DNA of 25,689 bases from a virus: positions 1 through 25,689 of the IMG/VR virus record IMGVR_UViG_3300035698_014457; one strand, given 5' to 3'. The position numbers and the translations under genes are program-made. This document shows, piece by piece, positions 1,112-22,815 of this stretch; position 1 is the first letter of the stretch; each line of letters starts with the position of its first letter. The notes under the pieces are model-generated. The model was not told the DNA's origin and ran no database searches. It worked only from the letters and a program-made list of their open reading frames with translations.

Positions 1112-1150
1112 GAACAAAAAAAGAGCGACCCGAAAGCCGCTCTTTAATTT
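1112..1150. terminator. Bidirectional factor-independent terminator
   Basis: The arms AAAGAGCG (1120-1127) and CGCTCTTT (1138-1145) form a perfect 8-bp stem around a 10-base loop. The plus strand has a T-rich tract after the stem, and the A-run before it becomes a U-run on minus transcripts. It lies exactly where plus-strand genes (ending 1096) and minus-strand late genes (ending 1211) converge, so it can stop both. Confidence 0.85.
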
Positions 1151-1210: not shown

Positions 1211-1765
1211 TCATTTTTCCTGAAGAGCTGCTGATGTTTTTGCTTTAGAGCCTTCTGAACGTGTAGTTCCCAATTTTGCTTGTCTTAGAGCTTCTTTGTG
1301 CTCTTTAGTCATTCCACCGCGCTCTGCAAATTTCTTTTTCTTAGCTTCTGAAATAGCCATGGCTTTCTCAGGAGAACACGGTCCTGTAGACTTACCAGTT
1401 TTTACAAAAGAAATTTTTTCTCCAACTGTTTTAATATGTTCAGGATATTTGTGCCACATTTCATTATTTTTAATATTTAAATTATAATATCGAATTCGAA
1501 TTTCTTCTGGTTTAATTAAATCTAAATATTTTTGCTCCGTAACGTAAGTTTCTTTACGTGTTTTAATATTAGACTTAAGAATTCTTCTTTTAAAGTGATG
1601 TGGTCTTGAACCATAGGCTTGCTTCATCCATTGGGAAAAACAAACATAACCATCGTTTTCAGTCCCCCAATGGCACCCAAGATAATAACGCTTGTGTTTA
1701 GTATCATACCATAAATAAACAAAACCATATTTTTCATTTTCATTACTATTACGTACGTAGACCAT
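1211..1765 (-). CDS. GIY-YIG homing endonuclease downstream of gp23
   Basis: This 184-residue protein is a free-standing homing endonuclease, which cuts alleles lacking it and is copied in by repair. The N-terminal GIY-YIG nuclease shows YGFVYLW (residues 13-19) and YYLG (27-30), arginines at 54-61 and the metal-binding glutamate at about 77 (VTEQKYL). The C-terminal half is basic and carries NUMOD3-like DNA-binding units (SPEKAMAISEAKKKK, TKEHKEALRQAKLG). In T4 the GIY-YIG gene segD occupies the same place, just after gene 23. Here no gp24 follows: the next thing is the convergent terminator. The ribosome-binding site GGGAG is seven bases before the ATG but buried in a hairpin (1768-1803) that overlaps a late promoter. 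Confidence 0.88.
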   Translation of the reverse strand: MVYVRNSNENEKYGFVYLWYDTKHKRYYLGCHWGTENDGYVCFSQWMKQAYGSRPHHFKRRILKSNIKTRKETYVTEQKYLDLIKPEEIRIRYYNLNIKNNEMWHKYPEHIKTVGEKISFVKTGKSTGPCSPEKAMAISEAKKKKFAERGGMTKEHKEALRQAKLGTTRSEGSKAKTSAALQEK

Positions 1766-1767
1766 AA

Positions 1768-1803
1768 AAATACTCCCAGAAAAGTTAATCTCTGGGAGTA
1801 TTT
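1768..1803 (-). promoter_or_regulatory. Hairpin hiding the endonuclease ribosome-binding site; possible gp23 terminator
   Basis: On the minus strand AAATACTCCCAGA and TCTGGGAGTATTT form a perfect 13-bp stem with a 10-base loop. The 3' arm contains the GGGAG ribosome-binding site and ends two bases before the ATG. Read-through transcripts from gp23 would fold it and block translation. The stem is followed by UUUUU, so it may also terminate gp23 transcripts. The late promoter at 1799-1806 overlaps the first bases of the 5' arm; a transcript starting about six bases after the promoter octamer would lack most of that arm and leave the site open. Confidence 0.8.
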
Positions 1804-1806
1804 ATA
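1799..1806 (-). promoter_or_regulatory. T4-type late promoter for the gp23-adjacent endonuclease
   Basis: The minus strand reads TATAAATA, the full T4 late-promoter octamer, 33 bases upstream of the ATG. Its last bases are shared with the 5' arm of the hairpin. Confidence 0.75.
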
Positions 1807-1847: not shown

Positions 1848-3212
1848 TTACATAAGATTGTTAACAATCATACGACGGTAATAAACGTTGCTGTCTTGTA
1901 CTAGACGGCCTAGGCCTTCTGTAGCACCTTCAGCATATGGGTTAGCAACCATACCATAACGAGTTTTGAACCCGATCTTTGGTTGGAACGTATCAGGATT
2001 AACTGCACGTACCATCTGTAGAGGTACATATGGGCAATAGAAGAGACCAGCATCGAATGCGCTCGAGCCCTTATAGCCTACTACCATGTAGTTTGCACCA
2101 GCATATGGATCAACATAAACGCGAAGGCGACCGTTTAGAACACCTGCGAAGGTATTCCCAGTATCATCAACGTTTAGGTTGTTAGAGTTAAGAGCAGGTG
2201 TGTAATCTAGAACACCAGCCATCTGAAGAGCAGACGCTACGTCTGAAGAGCAGATGATGATATTCCCTTTACCACGACGAGTGCCCTTTGCAACCGCGTT
2301 AGCTTCACGTTCAACTTGGAACATAAGGCCCTTGAACTTTTCAACAGACCAACGGCCGTTTGAGTCAGTGTCAAGATCGAAAATACCGGGTGTTGTAGTA
2401 CCTTCAGTAGCACCTGGTTTAGCAGTTGTTACGATTGTACGAATAACTTCACGGTTAATTTCAGCAAGAATTTCAGCAGAAAGAATATTACTTAGTTCTG
2501 TTTCAGCATCTAGACCATGAATAGCCTTTAGATCCTGTGCTAGTTCTAGCGAATATTCTGCCTTTAGAGCGCGTGACTTAGCTTCAACAGAAACCTTCTC
2601 AATTGAGAACGCCATTTCTGGGAAAAGCGCAATTGCGTTTGAGCCAAGACCTTCAGCAAGTGTAGTCTGTACACCCCCAGCGAAGTTGTAAGTGTTACCA
2701 CCAACGTTATTAGATACTGCTGGTGAAGTACCGACGCTAGTTGTTTGACCACCAAGAACGTTAGCTGTGGCATAACCGGCATTAGTAGGAGTAGCATTAG
2801 CGCCACCACGAGCTGAGTGCCCAGTTTCAACTTCGTTGTAGAAAGTTTCAGTACCTGCTTGACCGTCGTAGCGAGCGCGCATAGCAAAGATAAGACCAGT
2901 TGGACCTGTCATTGGCTGCACACCGCAAACATCGTATGCCATTAGGTTTGGCATCGCACGGCGAACAAGAGAGATAAGAACTGGGTCGAAGTTGTCGACT
3001 GCAGAACCGGTTGCGTTAGTTGGACCAGCTTCGTTCAAAGAACCAAAGCCTGAATTCATTCCCGCACTACGTGCTTCGCGAATTGCATTCTCAGTATTCT
3101 CTAGAATCTGAGCTGTAACGGCACGTCTGTGACCGTCTGTGATAGGTGAAAGATCCTCATGCTCGAGGATTGGCTTCCACTTGTTTTGTGTTTCTTCGGC
3201 TAGATATGACAT
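1848..3212 (-). CDS. 23: Major capsid protein gp23
   Basis: This 454-residue protein forms the hexamers of the phage head. It has the gp23 layout: a helical N-terminal prosegment (to about residue 61), then the conserved opening of the mature protein (NFDPVLISLVRRAMPNLMAYD) and the central GPTGLIFAMRARY, a glycine-rich insertion near residues 130-190, and the C-terminal YYRRMIV. A prohead-protease site of the (I/L)-x-E type is visible as LNE61/A62, close to the cleavage after Glu65 in T4. It follows the scaffold gene with its own late promoter and an AAGGAGA ribosome-binding site, suiting the most abundant virion protein. No gp24 vertex gene follows. Confidence 0.97.
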   Translation of the reverse strand: MSYLAEETQNKWKPILEHEDLSPITDGHRRAVTAQILENTENAIREARSAGMNSGFGSLNEAGPTNATGSAVDNFDPVLISLVRRAMPNLMAYDVCGVQPMTGPTGLIFAMRARYDGQAGTETFYNEVETGHSARGGANATPTNAGYATANVLGGQTTSVGTSPAVSNNVGGNTYNFAGGVQTTLAEGLGSNAIALFPEMAFSIEKVSVEAKSRALKAEYSLELAQDLKAIHGLDAETELSNILSAEILAEINREVIRTIVTTAKPGATEGTTTPGIFDLDTDSNGRWSVEKFKGLMFQVEREANAVAKGTRRGKGNIIICSSDVASALQMAGVLDYTPALNSNNLNVDDTGNTFAGVLNGRLRVYVDPYAGANYMVVGYKGSSAFDAGLFYCPYVPLQMVRAVNPDTFQPKIGFKTRYGMVANPYAEGATEGLGRLVQDSNVYYRRMIVNNLM

Positions 3213-15966: not shown

Positions 15967-17463
15967 TTAGCATTTAGCATTCCATACAAAAACTTTTTGT
16001 CCGCAATCAAATATTTGAAAATATCCCTTCCTACACATTATTTCTACTTCACTATTATTTTCATTACTACTATCTGATATTTTATGCTTCTGTGTTTGAT
16101 ATCTAGATAAAGTATGATTTTTTGAATTAATCCATGTATAATTTGGAGGGGTATAGTGTGAAAATTGGAATCCAATTTTTTCATACATTGAACCAGTAAA
16201 TAACCGACGCTGAGCGTAACTAATAATACCTTTAGGCTCCTGGGTTTTTTTAAAATAAGATAAAAGCTTTCCGGCGCCTCCAATTACATTATGATTGAGT
16301 ATATTAAAATATCTTATTAGTTCATAATCATAATGATGATTAAATCGAGGCTTTGCAAAACTCATCACTGACACTATTTGCCCGTCATACTCCAACCCTA
16401 GTTTTACAGAAGCTGCGCAATACCCTTGAATATGATGTTCAATGCTTAAATCCCTATACTGAGATGTATTTAATTCAACTACATTAGTCTTCCGTGCTGC
16501 AATTACTCTATTTTTACCTAGAGCTGAATTAATTATTGAAAAAACCTGTTTGCTTTTAAAATCTAATTCGGAGTCTGTGAAGTGCAGCAGTCTAATATTT
16601 TTATTTTCACAGGCTTTAGTTTTGTTTAAGTGATAGTTTTTTCCAATTTTTTCAGCATTGTGCCAATATATCCCGTTAATCTCAATTCCTAAGTTTATGT
16701 GAGGAATAAATATATCTATCTCTTGAGGTGTGATTAGCGTTCTATTACGTCGTATGTGTGTAATATTGTTTTCATTTAAATAATCAGAAATTTGAACCTC
16801 ATATGATGAGGCATTGTTATTCCAAGCTACCAATTCACCATGTTTTTCCTTTACATAAGAACTAATATAATTAGGACAACAACCTAGTTTCTTTGCTATT
16901 GTCTTAGAAGTACCTCCGTTTTTTACTTGTGTTTGTACCCAGTTCACATCGTCTAATACAGCTCTCACATTCCTAAACCCACCCTCGTCTAATAGATTAT
17001 CTCTTCGGACCTTTACAGCTCTGGTGCTATCCGTTAATTTATTCTCTCTAAAATGTCTTTTTAAAAAATAATTATCTATTTTATACTTTTGAGCTAATTG
17101 TTCGATTGTAATATTAGTCGACTTATACTCATTTTCACATATTGTAATTTTATCAGCATATTTAGTATAACGCAATTTACGTAATGCCCACGCTCTTTTT
17201 TTATTGTTTACTTTATTAAGTAGTGAATTTCTCTTACCTTGTGCTTTTCTGTAACATGTTTTTGAACAATACTTACCAAACCCCTTTTTTATAGATATAA
17301 ACCTTGTGTTTTCTGTACACTCTAAACATTTAGGAGGCGTTATATTATGTGCGGCGCAATAGAGAGGTACATAATTGATTACTTGCCCGCTTATTTTTCT
17401 CCCGCTTACTTTTTTATTATTTTTAATACAATCAATAATATATGACTCGGTTAAACTGTACAT
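15967..17463 (-). CDS. VSR/Hef-type homing endonuclease between gp13 and gp14
   Basis: This 498-residue protein is a probable free-standing homing endonuclease. Domains in order: a C-x2-C/C-x3-C zinc finger (C46, C49, C66, C70); a basic stretch; two helix-turn-helix-like segments (about 119-141 and 185-207, the second TSKTIAKKLGCCPNYISSYV); a PD-(D/E)xK/VSR-like nuclease core with E248-x-D250 (QEIDIFIP) and IEINGIYWH (260-268); and a C-terminal domain (320-470: AARKTNVVEL, HHIQGYCA, MSFAKPRFN, ELIRYFN, ISYAQRRLFTGSMYEKIGF) typical of Hef-like phage endonucleases. The ribosome-binding site AAGGAG is nine bases from the ATG and a TATATAAT box lies just before it, suggesting its own non-late promoter. 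It is codirectional with the late genes. Confidence 0.85.
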   Translation of the reverse strand: MYSLTESYIIDCIKNNKKVSGRKISGQVINYVPLYCAAHNITPPKCLECTENTRFISIKKGFGKYCSKTCYRKAQGKRNSLLNKVNNKKRAWALRKLRYTKYADKITICENEYKSTNITIEQLAQKYKIDNYFLKRHFRENKLTDSTRAVKVRRDNLLDEGGFRNVRAVLDDVNWVQTQVKNGGTSKTIAKKLGCCPNYISSYVKEKHGELVAWNNNASSYEVQISDYLNENNITHIRRNRTLITPQEIDIFIPHINLGIEINGIYWHNAEKIGKNYHLNKTKACENKNIRLLHFTDSELDFKSKQVFSIINSALGKNRVIAARKTNVVELNTSQYRDLSIEHHIQGYCAASVKLGLEYDGQIVSVMSFAKPRFNHHYDYELIRYFNILNHNVIGGAGKLLSYFKKTQEPKGIISYAQRRLFTGSMYEKIGFQFSHYTPPNYTWINSKNHTLSRYQTQKHKISDSSNENNSEVEIMCRKGYFQIFDCGQKVFVWNAKC

Positions 17464-19621: not shown

Positions 19622-19626
19622 GGTAT

Positions 19627-19656
19627 ATGGTTCGCGAGTGATCAGACTCCAACCAT
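19627..19656 (+). promoter_or_regulatory. 5'-leader hairpin, copy 1 of a conserved architecture
   Basis: Stem ATGGTT/AACCAT (6 bp), an asymmetric internal loop CGC/C, inner stem GAGT/ACTC (4 bp) and a six-base loop GATCAG. It starts five bases after a late promoter and ends 26 bases before the endonuclease ATG. The hairpin at 22152-22181 has the same layout with different stem sequences. Function unknown. Confidence 0.72.
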
Positions 19657-19682
19657 TCTAGAACTTTAGGGAGTATCCAGCA

Positions 19683-20459
19683 ATGTCATTTATTTATCTA
19701 TACATTAAACAACACTCGGTTACCGGGTTAAAATATTTTGGAAAAACTACGCGGAGAGATCCCTTTAAATATAATGGATCCGGTAAATATTGGTTAAACC
19801 ACATCAGAAAGCATAATAAAAAATATATAAAAACCTTAGAAATATTTGGTTTTGATAATCAGGAACTTTGTACTGAATTTGCTTTAAAGTTTTCATACAA
19901 AAACGAGATTGTTAAATCAAAGGATTGGGCAAATTTAAAAGAAGAAAACGGATTAGATGGTGGAAGTGTATTAGGTAGAAAATTATCGGATAAAGCTAAA
20001 AGAAAAATGTCTGAAGGTAGTAGAGGTAAGAAACATACACAAGAAACTAAAGATAAAATAAGCTTGGGTAATATAGGTAAAGTAGCATCACAAGAAACTA
20101 TAAAATTAATTTCGGATCATCACGTTGGATTTACAGGTAAGAAACATACACAAGAAACTAAAGATAAATTATCAGTATTAAAACAGGGTAAGAAACACCC
20201 AGAAGAAGTTTTAGTAAAAATAAGAAATACAAAAGCTCTTAATAAGCAAATACCATGGAATAAAGGTAAAACATCAATATACTCACAAGAGACTTTAAAT
20301 AAAATGTCTAGATCTAGTAAAGGTAAGACGCACTCACAAGAAAGTAAAGATAAAATGTCTAGATCTAAGAAAGGAAGAATTTTTTCTGAAGAACATAAGA
20401 GAAAGATATCTGAAGCTTTAAAAGGTAAACTTAAACATCAAAAAAGAAAAGATGGGTAA
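19683..20459 (+). CDS. GIY-YIG homing endonuclease with multiple NUMOD3 repeats
   Basis: This 258-residue protein has an N-terminal GIY-YIG nuclease: FIYLYIK (3-9), KYFGKT (17-22), KYNGSGKYW (29-37) and a likely catalytic glutamate at about 65 ([10 protein letters not shown]). Residues 95-258 are at least six NUMOD3-type DNA-binding units of the form [13 protein letters not shown], two of which are identical at the DNA level over 34 bases. It is inserted on the plus strand between two minus-strand glycosyltransferase genes, has its own late promoter and leader hairpin, and an AGGGAG ribosome-binding site nine bases before the ATG. Its last 29 bases overlap the end of the opposing gene. Confidence 0.88.
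20024..20168 (+). repeat. 34-base direct repeat inside the NUMOD3 region
   Basis: Bases 20024-20057 and 20135-20168 are identical (AGGTAAGAAACATACACAAG...), spaced 111 bases (37 codons) apart, in frame, each encoding [11 protein letters not shown]. This looks like a recent in-frame duplication of two repeat units. Confidence 0.85.
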
Positions 20460-22148: not shown

Positions 22149-22151
22149 AGT

Positions 22152-22181
22152 GGTAGCCGCGATACAGTAATATCCGCTACC
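22152..22181 (+). promoter_or_regulatory. 5'-leader hairpin, copy 2 of a conserved architecture
   Basis: Stem GGTAGC/GCTACC (6 bp), internal loop CGC/C, inner stem GATA/TATC (4 bp), six-base loop CAGTAA. Every stem differs in sequence from copy 1 at 19627-19656, yet stem lengths, internal-loop sequence and loop size are the same. It ends 22 bases before the endonuclease ATG. Confidence 0.72.
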
Positions 22182-22203
22182 TTTAGTCTAAGAGGAATCC
22201 TAT

Positions 22204-22815
22204 ATGACCAACACAATTATTTATACTAATATTTTCTATGTTTATTCTTATCTCAGAGAAGATGGTACCCCCTACTACATTGGTAAGGGCAATCGTGCAT
22301 TTTCTAAGCATCGATTTAAAATACCACAAGACCCCTCACGTATTAGTATAATTAAAGAAAAATTAACAGAAATAGAAGCGTTTGATTTAGAAGTCCAACT
22401 TATTAAACAATACGGCCGTAAAGACCTGGACACTGGTATACTTCGCAACCAAACTAATGGCGGGGAAGGGGCTTCGGGTGTTTTTCGTTCTATTGAAGTG
22501 CGAGCAAATATGAGTAAAGCTAGATTAGGTAAACCGCGCCCACCACATACGGAGATTACTCGAGAAAAAATTCGAAAAGCTAGAACAGGTATTCCTAGAT
22601 CATTAATAACACGTAAAAAGATTAGTGCTGCTCACAAAGGTAAAATTCGTACTATTGAACATCAAGCTAAACTAACTGCAGCTATGACGGGTAAACTTGC
22701 AACTGAGGAAACACGAGCTAAAATGAGTTTAGCTAAGAAAGGAAAACCTATTTCTGAGCAAACTCGTATACTCCGTGAAACAAATAGAGCTAGAAAGTTA
22801 GAGAGTCCCTCTTGA
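22204..22815 (+). CDS. GIY-YIG homing endonuclease (second plus-strand copy)
   Basis: This 203-residue protein has a GIY-YIG nuclease domain: FYVYSYL (11-17), PYYIGKGN (23-30), a glutamate at 63 (DLEVQLIKQYG) and the common LRNQTNGGEGASG segment. From residue 100 on there are NUMOD3-like units (ARLGKPRPPHTEITREKI, AHKGKIRTIEHQAKL, MTGKLATEETRAKMS, AKKGKPISEQTR). It is unlike the endonuclease at 19683 in its nuclease half, so the two are not recent copies. Ribosome-binding site AGAGGA seven bases before the ATG. It sits between two minus-strand genes and overlaps the end of the oxygenase gene by 18 bases. Confidence 0.88.
   Translation: MTNTIIYTNIFYVYSYLREDGTPYYIGKGNRAFSKHRFKIPQDPSRISIIKEKLTEIEAFDLEVQLIKQYGRKDLDTGILRNQTNGGEGASGVFRSIEVRANMSKARLGKPRPPHTEITREKIRKARTGIPRSLITRKKISAAHKGKIRTIEHQAKLTAAMTGKLATEETRAKMSLAKKGKPISEQTRILRETNRARKLESPS
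22218..22225 (-). promoter_or_regulatory. Possible late promoter for the glycosyltransferase-dioxygenase gene
   Basis: TATAAATA on the minus strand within the first codons of the opposing endonuclease, about 100 bases before the ATG at 22116. It faces the plus-strand late promoter at 22141. The same bases encode Tyr-Thr in a motif where tyrosine is common, so chance is possible. Confidence 0.45.

Follow-up and report, generated by a model that had tools for sequence, protein, structure and literature searches.

A conserved hairpin leader that probably restricts a phage GIY-YIG homing endonuclease to its own late transcripts

The window, by which we mean the whole stretch of DNA analyzed, is a 25,689-base IMG/VR virus record that carries T4-type head and tail genes. 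On its minus strand, an endonuclease gene lies downstream of the major capsid gene, gp23, behind a leader that reads TATAAATACTCCCAGAGATTAACTTTTCTGGGAGTATTTTTATG (minus strand, 1806-1763). The locus has the following features:

1848-3212, minus strand: gp23 major capsid gene (PF07068), upstream, the presumed source of read-through RNA
1799-1806, minus strand: late promoter motif TATAAATA, recognized as a motif, with a predicted +1 at 1793
1791-1803, minus strand: 5' arm of the stem, AAATACTCCCAGA, whose start falls within the promoter motif
1781-1790, minus strand: loop of 10 nt, from the sequence
1768-1780, minus strand: 3' arm of the stem, TCTGGGAGTATTT, from the sequence and from covariation in relatives
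1773-1777, minus strand: Shine-Dalgarno (SD) sequence GGGAG, inside the 3' arm
1766-1772, minus strand: UAUUUUU tail, a possible terminator U-tract, from the sequence
1211-1765, minus strand: free-standing GIY-YIG homing endonuclease of 184 aa (ORF; phrog_314; fold like the I-TevI catalytic domain)
1117-1145, minus strand: terminator 3' of the endonuclease; by the order in relatives it is probably the native gp23 terminator, now displaced

The stem is perfect: positions 1803-1791 form 13 Watson-Crick pairs with 1780-1768, and after the 3' arm come TT and then the ATG at 1765-1763, which leaves seven bases between GGGAG and the start codon. A preliminary description had placed the ribosome-binding site in the 3' arm of a perfect 13-bp stem and a promoter across its 5' arm, and the sequence confirms both. 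When all 25.7 kb were scanned for perfect hairpins of at least 10 bp (loop 3-12), this stem was the only one found; dinucleotide shuffles of the window (n = 40) gave a mean of 0.15 such hairpins, and none gave one of 13 bp. Its modeled energy is -21.8 kcal/mol. The motif TATAAATA occurs 12 times in the window, against 3.8 expected, mostly on the minus strand, where copies stand shortly upstream of late genes with unlocked leaders, gp23, gp19 and gp18 among them. We found no role for the hairpin on the plus strand, because the last plus-strand gene stops at 1096 and is followed by a terminator.

The endonuclease product matches a PHROG homing endonuclease family (phrog_314), and in fold it comes closest to 1mk0 and 1ln0, structures of the I-TevI catalytic domain (probability 0.93 but E 0.16). 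A GFVY..YYLG motif and invariant R, E and N residues are shared across 26 relatives. Searches with the window protein gave no match in Pfam and nothing at the sequence level in the PDB, and BLASTP against T4 SegB detected no homology (E 4.5). From the family match and the I-TevI-like fold, the protein is most likely a GIY-YIG enzyme, of the fold family of I-TevI and SegB. Its optional presence at several genomic sites is consistent with homing activity.

To place this leader in its family, we collected relatives by protein searches (8, then 80 viral loci, plus phage isolates) and by a search of GTDB genomes, which gave two MAG contigs with one usable leader (L175). An automatic, rule-based screen of about 60 distinct upstream regions assigned 29 to class A, defined by a late motif, a hairpin, an SD in the 3' arm and a start codon, and 25 to class B, most of which have a late motif, a terminator hairpin and then a separate SD; six were unclassified. 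A few assignments were corrected manually in the tree: class B leaders L128, L130, L147, L157 and L166 and the unclassified L094 appear locked by eye and are treated as locked there. Nearly all family members have a hairpin stem at this boundary. In about 20 of them the SD lies outside the hairpin while promoter and hairpin are kept, indicating that the lock is not indispensable to the endonuclease gene. Two class B leaders (L102, L104) have U7 upstream of the endonuclease, followed by ATGGAGAAATATTAATGGAAAAG; the first start there encodes M-E-K-Y-stop, and its GGAG is the SD of the real start, an arrangement suggestive of a locked start that was bypassed.

The preliminary description had proposed looking for compensating changes among related leaders, and these were found: the stem is kept while its sequence varies. 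Class A stems include CTCCC/GGGAG, CCCCC/GGGGG, CCTCC/GGAGG, CTCTC/GAGAG and CCTCG/CGAGG, with pairing preserved throughout. Among 25 aligned leaders, 98% of cells are paired, compared with at most 67.5% in slid-alignment controls, and double changes occur at 5 of the 10 pairs. Double-change cells number 22, against 5.8 ± 2.3 in shuffled alignments, a count taken over related leaders and hence not one of independent events. The leaders matched no Rfam family.

The position of the predicted transcript start is equally regular. The motif TATAAATA occupies -13 to -6 relative to the start (PMC1524935), and the late consensus reported for Aeh1, CTAAATA (PMC1524935), is a common variant among the endonuclease leaders. 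With the promoter assigned on motif and position, 28 of the 29 locked class A leaders have their predicted +1 no more than one base from where the loop begins; the window leader is the lone exception, with its predicted +1 (1793) two bases before the first loop base. We modeled the cost of freeing the SD in both kinds of RNA. For class A the median drops from 15.3 kcal/mol in the long RNA to 1.7 in the late-start RNA, and for the window from 18.7 (coding-strand fold) to 0.2, while class B changes only from 4.0 to 2.5 kcal/mol. The window leader shares two marks with the SD-lock leaders of I-TevI, e and segB: a T4-type late motif at the 5' arm, and an SD buried in a stable stem of the long RNA.

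Taken with the covariation, these models and this geometry give good support to the earlier proposal that long RNA would be locked and late RNA open. We consider it very probable that the leader limits endonuclease production to RNA from its own T4-type late promoter and that, next to gp23, it probably also acts as a partial terminator; within this scheme we infer promoter use, translational block and termination from sequence. In RNA entering from upstream, above all gp23 read-through, the 5' arm would pair with the SD and block translation. RNA begun at TATAAATA would start at 1793, close to where the 5' arm ends, would form no stem, and would be translated. At the gp23 site the hairpin and U-tract would probably stop part of gp23 transcription, and the late promoter would escape this stop because its start lies inside the stem. 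There is no need for the locked RNA to be an early or middle one: the evident candidate is read-through from gp23, whose late message is very abundant.

The mechanism itself is already known: T4 I-TevI and gene e are established cases, and segB and mobE are reported ones (PMC2988022, PMC3014915). In the I-TevI leader (td intron), the late motif is AATAAATA, the stem begins in the motif, and the SD is in the 3' arm with the ATG just after it (AATAAATACTTCTATATTTAAAGAGGTATTTATG); the protein is likewise a GIY-YIG enzyme. Unlike the window gene, I-TevI is intron-encoded inside an early/middle gene, and its stem is shorter and has no long U-tract. T4 segB is a free-standing GIY-YIG endonuclease gene with the leader CATAAATACTCTTAGAAATAGGAGATATTTATG, for which a late promoter and hairpin have been reported (PMC2988022), but it lies in the tRNA region and lacks a U-tract, and its product has no BLASTP similarity to ours. 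Gene e (lysozyme) shares TATAAATA with an SD-locking stem (PMC3014915), but is a phage gene, not a mobile one, and has two late promoters. Aeh1 mobE and seg43(25) of phage 25, which we compare through the description in a review, are free-standing endonuclease genes with hairpins at the start site; in seg43(25) the hairpin precedes an open ribosome-binding site, resembling our class B leaders (PMC2988022). The suggestion that the T4 I-TevI logic arose here in an unrelated free-standing gene is therefore not upheld: free-standing segB and mobE were already known (PMC2988022), the protein, like I-TevI, has the look of a GIY-YIG enzyme, and the leader is common to the family. Because the lock is already described in T4 and Aeh1 genes, our finding is best stated as new members of a known mechanism with a variant feature, a promoter inside a terminator-lock stem, and this is well supported. 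What is new is the conservation across the family, the mobility, the site-linked U-tract, and the sister class in which promoter and terminator overlap but the SD is free.

The covariance model R1, built from class A leaders, points the same way. The I-TevI and gene e leaders are textbook cases, and they are the two best places that R1 finds in all of T4, with weak scores (E 0.088 and 0.47). Among 80 gp23 loci R1 picks out only two, L062 and L020, each of which has the endonuclease. In phiN3 its hits include the leader of a further GIY-YIG gene (E 7e-5) and, as a weak match, that of a mobE-like gene (E 0.17). A collection scan for TAAATACYYY...RRRGTATTT...ATG returned at least 120 distinct elements; among the matches listed, stems of at least 12 bp make up 36% of elements, compared with 5% when the arms are swapped. 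Among those matches the pattern precedes many genes, including cyanophage-type neck (gp14) genes with U7 tails, and so the architecture is not confined to endonucleases. Neck gene examples are L179, L223, L227, L253, L255 and Synechococcus phage S-SCSM2R (H70), e.g. TAAATACCTCTAGGAAACTAGGGGTATTTTTTTATG. A similar pattern without a U-tract stands 5' of small proteins of about 55 aa.

Could the hairpin be merely the intrinsic terminator of gp23, its overlap with SD and promoter a by-product of a short intergenic region? All 21 locked leaders at the gp23 site combine a GC-rich stem with a run of at least four T, class B keeps hairpin and U-tract without the lock, and gp23 is followed by a terminator in 71 of the 72 loci without this endonuclease, as such a reading would have it. 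The T run is, however, a property of the site: it is found in 21 of 21 locked gp23-site leaders but in 0 of 7 leaders from the gp14 region (Fisher p 8e-7, on related rows), where the copies sit within an operon without a following terminator and retain the lock. Lock and terminator are thus separable, and the tie between U-tract and insertion site appears to be a new feature. The same leader also precedes the gene where gp23 is absent, and SD and ATG are placed consistently relative to the 3' arm.

The genomic context argues further against this terminator-only reading. Of 48 gp23-site endonuclease leaders, 43 have a late motif that overlaps the hairpin, against only 1 of 72 regions downstream of gp23 that lack this endonuclease (Fisher p 9e-26, on rows that are not independent); in 59 of those 72 the terminator comes first and the promoter after it. 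The single such locus with an overlap is L031 (4370-4420), where the next gene resembles another endonuclease type. In relatives, a terminator is usually still present 3' of the endonuclease, often followed by a late motif, and the endonuclease gene therefore appears to have entered between gp23 and the gp23 terminator with its own leader. We reject a pure gp23 terminator as the whole story, given the leader at other sites and the native-type terminator that persists downstream, and we regard it as unlikely that the hairpin is nothing else.

A contribution to termination was part of the preliminary description, which held that the stem may also end gp23 transcripts. This is plausible in view of the T runs at the gp23 site, but the hairpin is not the sole gp23 terminator: past the endonuclease comes the native-type one at 1145-1117. 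Many relatives have U6-7 tails. The window tail, UAUUUUU, is marginal and short, so that termination here is a possibility; its first bases double as stem bases, which is why a simple terminator scan did not call the window leader.

Another reading makes the inverted repeat a DNA operator: bound there, the endonuclease would repress its late promoter in the manner of I-TevI. We think this quite improbable. The site does overlap the late promoter, and I-TevI autorepression at an overlapping operator is known (PMC2988022). The I-TevI operator resembles its homing site. The free variation of the stem sequence with pairing kept nevertheless fits RNA better than sequence-specific binding, and operator and lock could coexist. 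Least probable of all is a stem that mainly shields RNA ends from decay, either the 3' end of gp23 mRNA or a processed endonuclease 5' end: decay is commonly slower where an RNA ends in a stable stem, and a stem stands at this boundary in nearly every member, but such protection leaves unexplained the SD in the 3' arm and the match between predicted start and loop.

We return to the leader as a translational lock, and to its movement with the gene. Most endonuclease copies follow gp23; others lie between gp19 and gp20 (Rhizobium phage RHph_I1_18), at non-capsid sites in the Sinorhizobium phages phiM12 and phiN3, or in the gp14 region. The tree places these other-site copies amid locked gp23-site rows; it has a minimum of 3 changes of the lock label, and parsimony counts 7. 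The leader thus accompanies the gene to other sites, which means that it is not merely a gp23 terminator, and its conservation and mobility are family-wide, a family trait and not a local novelty. In the window itself, the gp14-adjacent site used elsewhere by GIY-YIG relatives (L147, L157, L158, L166, L172) is held by a 498-aa putative endonuclease gene (15967-17463, minus strand, after a gp14-like gene), labeled HNH by eye only.

A second leader element emerged from the same comparison. It consists of a 6-bp stem, an asymmetric CGC/C internal loop and a 4-bp stem, usually followed by UCUA, the SD region, often CAGC, and AUG, and it is carried by some class B leaders and by the window's two other GIY-YIG genes. 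Across 36 sequences, 97.5% of cells pair and 9 of 10 pairs have double changes, with 80 double-change cells against 21.9 in shuffled alignments of these related sequences. A model lacking the window copies still finds them, at 19625-19685 (plus strand, E 1.5e-8) and 22150-22206 (plus strand, E 0.015). No Rfam family matches this leader, which precedes unrelated HNH genes and several GIY-YIG types (including L310-L366). For about half the copies, the start predicted from the late motif coincides with the first stem base or adjoins it, so that this hairpin, unlike the lock, would be kept at the mRNA 5' end. With its strong covariation, it appears to be a different, undescribed element. The two window genes behind it (19683-20459 and 22204-22815, plus strand) carry NUMOD3 repeats and run opposite to their neighbors, so that their predicted late promoters face against the late operon.

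Together, these observations suggest, tentatively and at somewhat less than even confidence, that T4-like free-standing homing endonucleases travel with portable late-expression leader cassettes. One type would be three-in-one, with a late promoter that starts inside its own terminator and SD-lock stem and escapes both, the terminator part being gained or lost with the insertion site. The other would be the undescribed hairpin with the invariant CGC/C internal loop, situated at the predicted 5' end of the mRNA or close to it, common to unrelated HNH and GIY-YIG genes and present twice in the window.

On our reading, the late-only translational lock described in a few T4 genes would be a conserved and mobile trait of a widespread family of free-standing endonucleases. 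Such a lock would allow insertion beside the most strongly transcribed late gene without production from that message. Why phages restrain these endonucleases is a question left open by a review of T4 (PMC2988022); locked versus unlocked leaders, and sites with versus without a terminator, offer a natural experiment on that restraint.
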